A DNA stretch of 38,292 bases from Candidatus Saccharimonadota bacterium (lineage in GTDB: Bacteria; Patescibacteriota; Saccharimonadia; Saccharimonadales; Saccharimonadaceae): NCBI GenBank assembly GCA_009781895.1, contig WQUV01000002.1, positions 1 through 38,292 of the forward strand. Reading direction: 5' to 3'. Within the stretch, counting starts at the first letter, position 1, and each line of letters begins with the position of its first letter. The position numbers were made by a program, and so were the translations under genes. The notes under the pieces are model-generated. The model searched no databases, was not told the DNA's origin, and saw only the letters and a list, made by a program, of their open reading frames with translations. Positions 21,033 to 30,098 of the stretch are shown in pieces.

Positions 21033-21039
21033 GCACTAC

Positions 21040-25764: not shown

Positions 25765-26289
25765 TTATAGGTGCTCTTTGATCTTACTGACGATGACGGG
25801 GAGGATATTAGGCAGTTCAGATTTCTCGTCGTCAGTGAGGCGGGAAAGGACAAAGTCAGCATCGCCCATAGTTTGACGCATGTCGCTACCGGTGCCAATG
25901 CGAATACGCTTAACTTTGTCGCCGAAGTGGTCAATGATACTAGAGAGGCCATTATTACCGCCACCCGAGCCGCCCTCGCGGAAGCGGACGTCGCCATAGG
26001 GGAGGGTGAAATCGTCGCAAACCACAAGGATGTCTTCTTTTGCTATCTTATAGAAATGAGCTACCGCTTGCGCTACTTCTCCCGACTTATTGTAGAAAGC
26101 CTGAGGCTTCAGCAGAAAAACCTTTTCGCCGCTGATTTCAGCTTCGGCAATTTGGGCGTTCCATTTTGGCTTATCGGCCCATTCTGTGCTTTGTGTGATG
26201 GCAAGAAAATCAAGGGCGATAAAGCCGAGATTATGACGAGTCCAAAGATATTCGGCGCCAGGATTGCCTAGGCCGACTATTAGCTTCAT
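25765..26289 (-). CDS. pth: Peptidyl-tRNA hydrolase
   Basis: 174 residues. Pth releases peptides from drop-off peptidyl-tRNA. All family residues are visible: GLGNPGAEY (Asn), TRHNLGF (catalytic His), CDDFTLPYGDVRFREGGSGGGNNGL (Asp and the Gly-rich loop with Asn), and GIG near RIRIGTGSD. It is slightly shorter than E. coli Pth (194) at the C-terminus. Its start overlaps the der stop by 4 nt (ATGA), so it is translationally coupled to der. Confidence 0.95.
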   Translation of the reverse strand: MKLIVGLGNPGAEYLWTRHNLGFIALDFLAITQSTEWADKPKWNAQIAEAEISGEKVFLLKPQAFYNKSGEVAQAVAHFYKIAKEDILVVCDDFTLPYGDVRFREGGSGGGNNGLSSIIDHFGDKVKRIRIGTGSDMRQTMGDADFVLSRLTDDEKSELPNILPVIVSKIKEHL

Positions 26290-27920
26290 CTCTTACCCTT
26301 TTTGCTACTAGCGAGACGGCGATTAGTGTGCCCACTAGAGCCGCGAGTCGCACCCTTGCCTTTATAGCGAGATTCGTGACCGCCACCGTCACGGAAACTG
26401 AACTTGATTGGCGTACCGAAGAACGGAAAAGCGGCGCGGAGTTCGTTCTCGAGATAGCGCTGATAGGAGAAATGGATTTTTGATAGATTTGAGCCGTATA
26501 TGACAAACCAAGGCGGGCGAGTGTCGGTTTGAGTGCAATAACGAGGGCGCGGCAGAGGAGGGCGGCCTGTCGGTGGGCTCTTTTGGACGGCATCGAAAAG
26601 GACGCGATTGAGATCAGAGGTCTTTATCGTGGTACGGCGGGATTCGTCAATCTTGAGGGCAAGTTCGAGGATCTTCGCGACGTTTTTGCCAGTTTTAGCA
26701 CTAACTAGCACTACTGGCGAGAATGGGGCAAATTTATATTCGCGTGATAGACGATTTAACAATCTGTCAGATGTCAGCCCAACCGAACCTTCTTCTCGGG
26801 CAGGGAGTTCATCAATCCCGTCGTTACGGGTCTCCGACTCCTCATTCTCGGTCGCAACCTCCGAAAGTTCCTCGACAGAAGATTCGGACGGGCCGCCGGT
26901 AGACAAGTCCCACTTGTTTACCACAAGAATCAGACCCTTGCCAGCTTCGATGATTTCGCCAGCGAGTGTGCAGTCGAAGGCAACGAAAGGGTCAGTGGCG
27001 TCGAGGACGAGGACGCAGATGTCGGATTCGAGAATAGCGCTCATAGTGCGCATGACAGAGAACTTCTCTACGCCAACTTCTTGCTTGCCACGACGACGAA
27101 CTCCAGCGGTGTCGAGGATCTCAAAGTCACGGCCGTAAAAGCGAAGGTCGGTGCGATTGACATCGCGTGTAGTTCCAGCACGGGCGCTCGCAATCGCTTG
27201 CTGCTTGTTGGCGATAGTGTTGAATAATGATGATTTGCCGACATTTGGGCGGCCAATTAGGGCAAGTTTGACGACCCCTCCGGGTGCCTCTCCCGCTTCA
27301 TCTCCTCGGACAGGGAGTTCATCAATCCCGTCGTTACGGGTCTCCGACTCCTCATTCTCGGTCGCAACCTCCGAAAGTTCCTCGAGAGATAATTCGGGAG
27401 CGACACCCGTATCGGCGCCAACTAGCTCAGCGATGGCTTCTCGTAGATGCGGAATCCCGACATTGTGTTCGGCGGAGACTTTGACGATGTCTTTGATGCC
27501 GAGGCGGCGAAATTCGTTCTCATCCAGCGAGCCGCCAAGGTCGGACTTATTGAGGAGGAGTATGACTTTCTTGCCAGACTTGAGGGCTTTCTTGGCGATT
27601 TTTTTGTCGTTGTCGTCTGGGAAGAGAGTGGAGTCAAGGGCAAGAAGGATTAGGTCGGCTACCAGAATGGCGTCGTCGATTTGATCCTGGATGGTTGCCT
27701 CGAAGTCGTCTTCGGGGTCCTTGAGACCAGCGGTGTCGACTAGTATGACTTCTTTGTTGCCGACTGAAAGACGACGCATAACACTGTCGCGAGTAGTGCC
27801 TGGGTCATAGGCGACGATAGCCTCGCGACTACGGGTTAGGCGATTGAAAAGCGCGCTCTTGCCAGCATTGGTCTGTCCGACAATGGCGACAATTGGGAGG
27901 CGCTTTTTAGTGTTACTCAT
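26286..27920 (-). CDS. der: Ribosome-assembly GTPase Der (EngA) with two in-frame repeat insertions
   Basis: 544 residues against about 440-490 usual. Two G domains and a KH-like C-terminus act in 50S assembly. G domain 1: VGQTNAGKSALF, DTAGL, LNKSD. G domain 2: GRPNVGKSSLF, RAGTTRD, DTAGV, NKWD, SAKTG. An identical stretch of about 24 residues (core SEVATENEESETRNDGI) occurs at about 179-203, in the linker between the G domains, and at about 349-374, between NKWD and SAKTG of G domain 2. Both come from the same 75-bp DNA repeat read in the same frame. TAGAAT lies 9 nt before the ATG. First gene of a five-gene operon. Confidence 0.94.
   Translation of the reverse strand: MSNTKKRLPIVAIVGQTNAGKSALFNRLTRSREAIVAYDPGTTRDSVMRRLSVGNKEVILVDTAGLKDPEDDFEATIQDQIDDAILVADLILLALDSTLFPDDNDKKIAKKALKSGKKVILLLNKSDLGGSLDENEFRRLGIKDIVKVSAEHNVGIPHLREAIAELVGADTGVAPELSLEELSEVATENEESETRNDGIDELPVRGDEAGEAPGGVVKLALIGRPNVGKSSLFNTIANKQQAIASARAGTTRDVNRTDLRFYGRDFEILDTAGVRRRGKQEVGVEKFSVMRTMSAILESDICVLVLDATDPFVAFDCTLAGEIIEAGKGLILVVNKWDLSTGGPSESSVEELSEVATENEESETRNDGIDELPAREEGSVGLTSDRLLNRLSREYKFAPFSPVVLVSAKTGKNVAKILELALKIDESRRTTIKTSDLNRVLFDAVQKSPPTGRPPLPRPRYCTQTDTRPPWFVIYGSNLSKIHFSYQRYLENELRAAFPFFGTPIKFSFRDGGGHESRYKGKGATRGSSGHTNRRLASSKKGKR
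26801..26875 (-). repeat. 75-bp exact repeat, copy A, inside der
   Basis: Identical at all 75 positions to 27311-27385; the 10 bases before it differ at only two. It contains a short dyad, CCCGTCGTTACGGG. In der it encodes an acidic, polar peptide inserted between the G4 and G5 motifs of G domain 2. Perfect DNA identity inside a coding region suggests recent copying rather than selection on the protein. Confidence 0.9.
27311..27385 (-). repeat. 75-bp exact repeat, copy B, inside der
   Basis: Second copy of the element at 26801-26875, same orientation and reading frame, 510 bp away. Here it lies in the flexible linker between G domains 1 and 2, where an insertion would be easily tolerated, so this may be the older site. 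Confidence 0.9.
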
Positions 27921-28725: not shown

Positions 28726-28747
28726 GGCCCACCGCTAATGGTGGGCC
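28726..28747 (+). terminator. Terminator of the 28158 gene
   Basis: GGCCCACC (28726-28733) pairs with GGTGGGCC (28740-28747), 6-nt loop, followed by TTATCCTTTT. Confidence 0.85.
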
Positions 28748-28799: not shown

Positions 28800-28840
28800 G
28801 TGAAAAAGCCAGCGAGGGTGGGCTTCGCTGGCTTTTTCAC
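28800..28840. terminator. Long perfect bidirectional terminator, 3' end of the ncRNA
   Basis: A perfect 16-bp inverted repeat (28800-28815 with 28825-28840), 9-nt loop, with T5 on either strand inside the 3' arm. As the 28158 gene already has a terminator, its main client is probably the minus-strand transcript starting near 29134. Confidence 0.85.
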
Positions 28841-29134
28841 CCTTTAAATCACCTTTTAGGCCTACCACCGTAGAGCATGACCCACCTCATCATCTATGGG
28901 GTCTGCCGTTTAAAGGGGTTGTCCTGATATCAAGTGGTCTCAAAAAGTGGAGGTAAGATTACTTTTTAGCTCTAGGAGCCCAAGGAGGCTTGATAGCAGG
29001 CAACAACTTTAGGAGTAAAGACCAAGCATAACCGGCGGGTATACCGCCTTAAGAGTCTTTACTTTATCCTAAAATATGTTATAGTTTATTTAGGTGCGGG
29101 TTATAAGAGGTCTATTACGACTACTCCTTAACAC
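28800..29134 (-). ncRNA. Candidate structured non-coding RNA, about 335 nt, unassigned
   Basis: Minus-strand unit bounded by a consensus promoter (29141-29169) and a 16-bp terminator hairpin. No ORF of note on either strand. A long helix joins 29008-29022 with 29055-29073 (TTTAGG/CCTAAA plus AGTAAAGAC/GTCTTTACT, one bulge), and it encloses a GGCGG/CCGCC hairpin (29034-29048). A second hairpin is possible around GACCC/GGGTC and a third at CTAC/GTAG. I looked for tmRNA (tRNA-like ends, tag), RNase P (GAGGAAAGTCC core), SRP RNA and 6S features and found none. Strand choice rests on the promoter. Confidence 0.65.
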
Positions 29135-29140
29135 ATCACC

Positions 29141-29169
29141 ATTATAGCACACGATAGGTCATAAGTCAA
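29141..29169 (-). promoter_or_regulatory. Consensus promoter for the ncRNA
   Basis: On the minus strand TTGACT (29164-29169), exactly 17 nt, TATAAT (29141-29146). It is the closest to sigma-70 consensus in the window and points away from dprA. Confidence 0.8.
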
Positions 29170-29252: not shown

Positions 29253-30098
29253 GTGACTAGATGCTTGACGACATCTGAAAATGATTATCTTCGTCATTTT
29301 ACTGAGGGTGCTACTCTATACATACGGGGAGCACTACCCGAGATACGCAACTTCACGGTAGCCATCGTTGGCACACGCAAACCCACCGAATATGGTGCGA
29401 GAACGGCCTACAAGACTGCCTATGAGCTAGTGAGACAAGGGGTGACGGTGATCTCTGGGCTGGCGCTCGGGATTGACGCGGCGGCGCACAGAGGTGCGCT
29501 AGACGGAGCAACCTTAGCTACTTCTAATACAGGCTTTGTGCCGACCATAGCGGTGCTCGCTAGCGGCGTGAACAACGTCACACCAAGACAAAATCAAGGA
29601 CTAAGCGAGCAGATCCTAAGCGCTGGAGGAGCTATCTTAAGTGAGTACCCAGACGAAAAGCCTAACTCAGTGAAAGCCTGGCAGCTACTAGCCAGAAATC
29701 GTATCGTCTCTGGGCTGGCGGACGCCGTGATTATAGTTGAGGCGGCCGCAAGATCTGGGACTTCGTCCACCGCTCGACACGCAATGAAACAAGGTCGCCC
29801 AGTATTTATAGTGCCAGGAAGGCTAACAGATGTGATGAGCGCTGGGTGCCTCGAACTGCTAGAAGAACACCCAGATAAAGTCAGGATATTTACCACTGTA
29901 AACAAGCTCTTAGGGGCTACTAGACTAAACGACCACGAAGTAAAAGTAGCTTCGGCTAGCCTAGAACCTTCCTGTATCACGACGAAAGCGAAGGATATGA
30001 TTAGGGCTGGCTCGACATCGACAGAGATAGCTAAGAGGTTAGAGATAGGGGCAGCGGAGTTAGCTCAGATACAAACTGAGCTGGAACTCTTTGGCTAG
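29253..30098 (+). CDS. dprA: DNA processing protein DprA
   Basis: 281 residues. DprA binds incoming single-stranded DNA during transformation and loads RecA. The Rossmann core shows VAIVGTRKPTEYGARTA, VISGLALGIDAAAHRGAL, AVLASGVNNVTP, LARNRIVSGLADAVIIVEAAARSGTSSTARHA and GRPVFIVPG. A C-terminal winged-helix-like segment (IRAGSTSTEIAKRLEIGAAEL) remains; the N-terminal SAM-like domain is missing. The start is a GTG at 29253 behind GGGAG; no in-frame ATG lies nearby. Neighbouring recA converges from the other side. Confidence 0.95.
   Translation: MTRCLTTSENDYLRHFTEGATLYIRGALPEIRNFTVAIVGTRKPTEYGARTAYKTAYELVRQGVTVISGLALGIDAAAHRGALDGATLATSNTGFVPTIAVLASGVNNVTPRQNQGLSEQILSAGGAILSEYPDEKPNSVKAWQLLARNRIVSGLADAVIIVEAAARSGTSSTARHAMKQGRPVFIVPGRLTDVMSAGCLELLEEHPDKVRIFTTVNKLLGATRLNDHEVKVASASLEPSCITTKAKDMIRAGSTSTEIAKRLEIGAAELAQIQTELELFG

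Follow-up and report, generated by a model that had tools for sequence, protein, structure and literature searches.

The window, a stretch of 38,292 nucleotides from a Candidatus Saccharimonadota bacterium (contig WQUV01000002.1), carries on its minus strand a member of a new RNA family of the order Saccharimonadales. Comparison across the order shows a predicted gene for a structured RNA, equipped with its own promoter and terminator; the RNA's conserved core consists of the helices P5ext/P5, P6 and P3 and the terminator hairpin, arranged around a variable domain. That the family is genuine is close to certain. It is a near-universal structured RNA in an order of streamlined epibionts, absent from Rfam, and probably an important, undescribed part of the tiny parasitic Saccharibacteria.

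A free-standing RNA gene

The following features define the locus (coordinates are those of the window):

28800 to 29134, minus strand: noncoding RNA of about 335 nt, its start placed from the -10 box and its end from the terminator; homologues exist
29141 to 29169, minus strand: promoter, with TTGACT at 29169-29164, a 17-bp spacer ending in TG-N, and TATAAT at 29146-29141
28800 to 28840, minus strand: intrinsic terminator hairpin of 16 bp, with the conserved loop AGCCCACCC at 28824-28816, complementary to GGUGGG
29253 to 30098, plus strand: dprA (Pfam DNA_processg_A), the divergent neighbour, conserved across the order

The initial annotation had described a minus-strand TTGACT-17-TATAAT promoter, a 16-bp terminator and about 335 nt without an ORF between them, and all three elements were confirmed. 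The promoter matches 11 of 12 consensus bases and has a 17-bp spacer and an extended -10 TG. Taken alone, it has no significance in 4 kb, where a looser cut-off gives 6 sites against 4.3 ± 2.3 after shuffling; the same promoter recurs at the same spot, where the RNA starts, in nearly all of 80 homologous loci, as TTGAC-N(16-18)-TAnnnT and mostly with the extended -10 TG (at locus L036 a different best site was picked). Predicted RNA lengths across these 80 loci are about 245-520 nt. The terminator consists of 16 perfect base pairs at 28840-28800 with a 9-nt loop (-25.6 kcal/mol), and was missed by a simple scanner because the loop limit of that scanner is 8. No ORF of at least 60 aa overlaps 28800-29134, and the longest stop-free stretch in the RNA is about 29 codons.

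Genome-wide, the RNA's promoter is one of 48 sites scoring at least 12 (on the 13.5 scale) in 678 kb, and most of the other high-scoring sites that were inspected precede protein genes with long leaders. Near-consensus promoters in this genome include those at window position 21039 (plus strand), C2:45061 (plus) and C3:91471 (minus); many have small protein genes downstream, with 70-150-nt leaders and strong AGGAGG sites, and several of these leaders also carry C-runs (CCCCCCCC, CCCACCCC). Just downstream of the RNA, at 28726-28747, lies a 22-nt hairpin (GGCCCACCATTAGCGGTGGGCC) that contains both GCCCACC and GGTGGGC, the same motif pair as the RNA's terminator loop and its partner.

The gene dprA lies divergently upstream of the RNA in the window and in most homologous loci (63 of the 74 named loci that have room for it; no dprA match was obtained at the remaining 11). 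This order-wide arrangement would suit a competence-linked RNA acting with or on dprA, the more so as the ModT/raiA RNA of other phyla likewise tends to adjoin a competence gene, comFC (PMC11706538). However, divergent orientation means that no transcript is shared, and old gene order is often kept in reduced genomes; we give a role in competence a slim chance.

Downstream, mechanical ORF calls at 79 loci make the first ORF codirectional with the RNA at 39 of them and convergent at the other 40, and the next annotated codirectional gene in the window, encoding an EngA/Der-like GTPase, starts about 880 nt away. Since the downstream gene varies while promoter and terminator are kept, the RNA is free-standing and not a leader. 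Being structured and ending in a terminator, with a loop capable of pairing upstream, it might be read as a cis-acting leader (riboswitch or attenuator), the terminator controlling the downstream gene, but no conserved codirectional gene follows it, and this interpretation, already largely refuted, is very improbable. In the EngA/Der-like GTPase itself (26286-27920, minus strand) the segment EELSEVATENEESETRNDGIDELP occurs twice, at two places in the protein.

Distribution

By blastn, copies turned up in 18 of 61 genomes, outside the genus as short blocks of similarity. R1, a covariance model built on the RNA's 3' half, matched 184 of 198 genomes of the family, including 137 of the 139 good ones, and 251 of 295 genomes of the order, including 200 of the 223 good ones, nearly always once per genome. 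Of 380 phylum genomes 32 matched, all of them members of the same order, and none of the phylum genomes sampled outside it gave a match. A second model (R2), from the 5' half of order-wide sequences, matched 131 of 245 genomes of the class, again only in this order, and its matches sit directly upstream of those of R1; R2 misses the window's lineage, whose 5' half has diverged. In an exact-pattern scan of named genomes, the matches among those listed are Saccharibacteria/Saccharimonadia, TM7, Patescibacteria or plain "bacterium" records, and include oral taxa 350 and 352. By this comparison the RNA is single-copy and universal or nearly so in Saccharimonadales; its retention in roughly 90-99% of the order's good genomes makes a core gene very likely.

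Conserved fold

Folding of the whole RNA gave z = -4.58 against shuffled sequences, and without the terminator only -2.33, with 3 of 200 shuffles as good. The single-sequence fold also misses P3, which is among the best-supported conserved helices. Evidence of this kind is suggestive only, and the case for a structured RNA rests on comparison. The elements, all on the minus strand, are, from 5' to 3':

29101 to 29131: P1, a variable 5' hairpin of the single-sequence fold, visible at the same place in homologues
29055 to 29074: 5' arm of a genus-specific 15-bp helix, partner of 29022-29008, from the fold and from duplexes in four species
29008 to 29022: 3' arm of the 15-bp helix, from the fold and same-genus duplexes
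28989 to 29004: 5' strand of P5ext/P5 (GUUGCCUG CUAUCAAG), paired in the fold; the homologous helix covaries
28942 to 28967: P6 hairpin, AAAAAGU...ACUUUUU, with the anti-Shine-Dalgarno-like loop AAUCUUACCUCC
28918 to 28934: 3' strand of P5/P5ext (CUUGAUAU CAGG-A-CAAC), from the fold and covariation
28909 to 28917: 5' strand of P3 (CCCUUUAAA)
28875 to 28907: P7 hairpin of the variable domain (GGCAGACC...GGGUCAUGC), containing GGUGGG at 28886-28881
28840 to 28848: 3' strand of P3 (UUUAAAGGG), pairing with 28909 to 28917

Compensatory changes strongly back the predicted core helices. In 81 sequences, 98.1% of cells are paired in P3 (CCCUUUAAC/GUUAAAGGG), P7 and the terminator stem taken together (82.5 ± 0.5% in the shuffled control), with two-sided changes in 23 of 28 pairs and a covariation score of 0.413 vs. 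0.164 for shuffles and at most 0.088 when slid; for P3 by itself the values are 99.3% of cells and 6 of 9 pairs. The alignment of these 81 sequences was fitted to the model, and a MAFFT alignment shows the same covariation at smaller scale. P5 and P5ext are 96.4% paired vs. 74.7%, with two-sided changes in all 12 P5 pairs. Under motif anchoring, which involves no fitting, the paired share of P5 is 89.4% over 59 distinct sequences, and reassigning the partners lowers it to 58.1 ± 2.3%. Individual cases include a double compensation in P5ext of one lineage, from GUUAG/CUAAC to GUUGC/GCAAU, and a change from GCA/UGC to GCG/CGC in P7. The look for covariation across Saccharibacteria that the initial annotation had proposed was thus rewarded with a strong signal. 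The 15-bp helix with a single bulge that it had pointed out (29074-29055 with 29022-29008) can be drawn in each of the four copies from the genus, two of the four species showing one compensatory change from U-A to C-G, and is a predicted elaboration at the genus level.

Two further pairings were rejected. A CACC/GGUG pseudoknot of the 5' GCACC motif with the P3 junction meets GGCG in L002-L004 and GAUG in L012, with no matching change, and an inner ACCUC/GAGGU helix of P7 is broken by ACCCC variants, GCRGRCC/GGUC-A-YGC being supported instead. In some genera (L017, L111, L112 and L114) the domain inside P3 is swapped for a different, larger one, and the core of P3, P5, P6 and terminator is unchanged despite the swap.

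Search for known RNA families

With all of Rfam 15, cmscan identified only tRNA-Trp in the window; at the RNA locus nothing reached the gathering score, the weak matches up to E = 10 being chance or the bare terminator hairpin, and eight diverse homologous loci gave nothing relevant. The combination of strong covariation and this lack of an Rfam match for the RNA and its eight homologues supports the earlier idea that the class may be new, in the sense of a new RNA family; none of the known families tested fits it, and precedents exist for this sort of object. We found no description of the RNA in open-access papers, subscription papers and preprints lying outside the search, and a complete oral Nanosynbacter genome has been annotated with only 2 ncRNAs (PMC8830319).

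The exclusion of tmRNA and RNase P RNA in the initial annotation was right, as both are located on another contig of the genome, C14. For tmRNA (RF00023) there is no Rfam match and ARAGORN sees none at the locus, the genome's own copy being at C14:3285-3665; the class A model of RNase P RNA (RF00010) has no match, and a partial RNase P RNA is on C14. The reported absence of SRP and 6S hallmarks agrees with the lack of Rfam similarity to either at the locus. The SRP RNA models (RF00169, RF01854) have no match there, the conserved domain IV motif was not seen, and no SRP RNA was matched elsewhere in the window's genome. SRP RNA also went unrecognised in 192 patescibacterial genomes (RF00169) and in 21 relatives (RF01854), and tblastn with an approximate query sequence found no match to Ffh or FtsY in the window's 98.8% complete genome; Patescibacteria may be a phylum without recognisable SRP. 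The failure to recognise SRP RNA in the 192 genomes leaves a vacancy that a divergent SRP RNA, or another known housekeeping RNA, might fill here, but the models and the domain IV motif speak against it, no SRP partner is evident from the Ffh and FtsY searches, and tmRNA and RNase P RNA lie elsewhere in the genome. Such an assignment is already largely refuted and its probability almost negligible.

No Rfam similarity to 6S RNA (RF00013) was found in the RNA or the eight homologous loci, and no 6S RNA above the Rfam cut-off in 21 related genomes. One weak match below the cut-off (32.4 bits; G038:C51:16563-16716, L024) comes from a different family within the order, where RNase P RNA lies about 400 nt away. 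The RNA could bind RNA polymerase and so replace 6S RNA functionally, which would fit the result from the 21 genomes and the character of both as single-copy, strongly promoted RNAs of housekeeping type; yet no 6S model matches, and the conserved fold of P3, P5, P6 and terminator differs from the long hairpin with a central bubble of 6S RNA. We regard a 6S substitute as highly unlikely.

Invariant loops and possible function

The P6 loop contains CUCC in 81 of 81 homologues and CCUCC in 80 of them, and resembles the core of the 16S anti-Shine-Dalgarno; a 16S 3' end with GGAUCACCUCCU was not found in the window's MAG. A C-rich 5' strand, ACCUUAUACCCCC, is present in most lineages and is not essential, because ACCUAAAUAA replaces it in the window's lineage.

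The terminator loop contains GCCCACCC in 81 of 81 homologues, and 77 of them have GGUGGG (32 only at the P3 junction, 24 only in the inner domain and 21 at both; the regex finds it at neither place in 4, and in L106 a GGGUGGG lies just outside the regex bounds). Sequences that have lost the junction copy tend to carry an inner one (Fisher p = 6e-5, uncorrected for ancestry). GGUGGG, which is complementary to the terminator loop (GCCCACC), thus changes position but is kept. Docking of the terminator loop onto GGUGGG is likely, the partners being near-invariant and the backing coming from position switching, not from classical covariation. The GUUAG strand of P5ext has a second complement in a 5' CUAAC strand, whose variants are mostly wobble-compatible with GUUAG, and in the window's genus and in L088 and L093 the two GUUAG/CUAAC pairings are on separate strands. 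A GUUAG with two CUAAC partners suggests two alternative folds.

We tentatively prefer the explanation that the RNA acts in trans and uses its C-rich loops to control translation. We infer that cells produce it abundantly and that it works in trans, its putative abundance following only from the strong, conserved promoter. The folded core would display unpaired C-rich segments, namely the P6 loop with its CCUCC and, except in a minority of lineages, the ACCUUAUACCCCC strand. The loop would pair with GGAGG-type ribosome-binding sites or, alternatively, substitute for the 16S tail with a ribosomal partner, and the RNA would thereby tune translation globally, e.g. between attached and free-swimming states. 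The docked terminator loop may close the fold and protect the 3' end, and the shared GUUAG strand, with its two complementary CUAAC segments, could act as a switch between two conformations. The unpaired anti-Shine-Dalgarno-like loop expected of a trans-acting RNA of this kind is there in all but one homologue, strong AGGAGG-type ribosome-binding sites are common in the window's genome, which fits the model, and a central part in the life cycle of Patescibacteria has been proposed for translation control (PMC11665869). Anti-Shine-Dalgarno complementarity is not specific evidence, because any CCUCC can pair with any Shine-Dalgarno sequence, and it is just as conceivable that the invariant loops bind proteins or make tertiary contacts.

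It is possible, if doubtful, that the RNA serves as scaffold or catalyst in a ribonucleoprotein, or works as an RNA-only assembly, with loops that make protein or tertiary contacts instead of antisense pairings. Its size, the likely loop docking, the near-invariant unpaired motifs and the near-universal single copy are closer to OLE, ROOL or RNase P than to short antisense RNAs; against this, no candidate partner gene was found, the closest constant neighbour being dprA, and the variable domain changes size freely. Translation control also has a version that we consider unlikely, a so far undescribed housekeeping RNA class, universal in Saccharimonadales, that resets translation between parasite life stages by an anti-Shine-Dalgarno mimic and a GUUAG/CUAAC fold switch. 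Saccharibacteria are transformable and amenable to Tn-seq screening (PMC10633639), so that the essentiality and function of the RNA are directly testable.

Comparison with other large RNAs

As an RNA family the Saccharimonadales RNA is unrelated to anything known, and as an object it joins the large orphan RNAs (ModT, OLE). Staphylococcal RNAIII and similar RNAs have C-rich hairpin loops (CCUCC or UCCC) able to cover Shine-Dalgarno sites; the present RNA has such loops, but no homology to them, and its targets are putative. Like the raiA motif or ModT (RF03072), an independently transcribed, highly structured, trans-acting orphan RNA with pseudoknots found in a very large clade (PMC11706538), it is a free-standing structured orphan. 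ModT, in contrast, is about 205-215 nt long (vs. 245-520 nt), belongs to Bacillota and Actinomycetota, neighbours comFC instead of dprA, and has no sequence or covariance similarity to the Saccharimonadales RNA, the model giving no match to E = 10 at the window's RNA locus or to 0.5 in the eight homologous loci. OLE, ROOL and GOLLD are likewise large, ornate orphan bacterial RNAs (PMC12286853), whereas the Saccharimonadales RNA is smaller, is a near-universal core gene of a single order and has no Rfam match. ModT and the OLE, ROOL and GOLLD RNAs are its nearest parallels, by style and not by homology.
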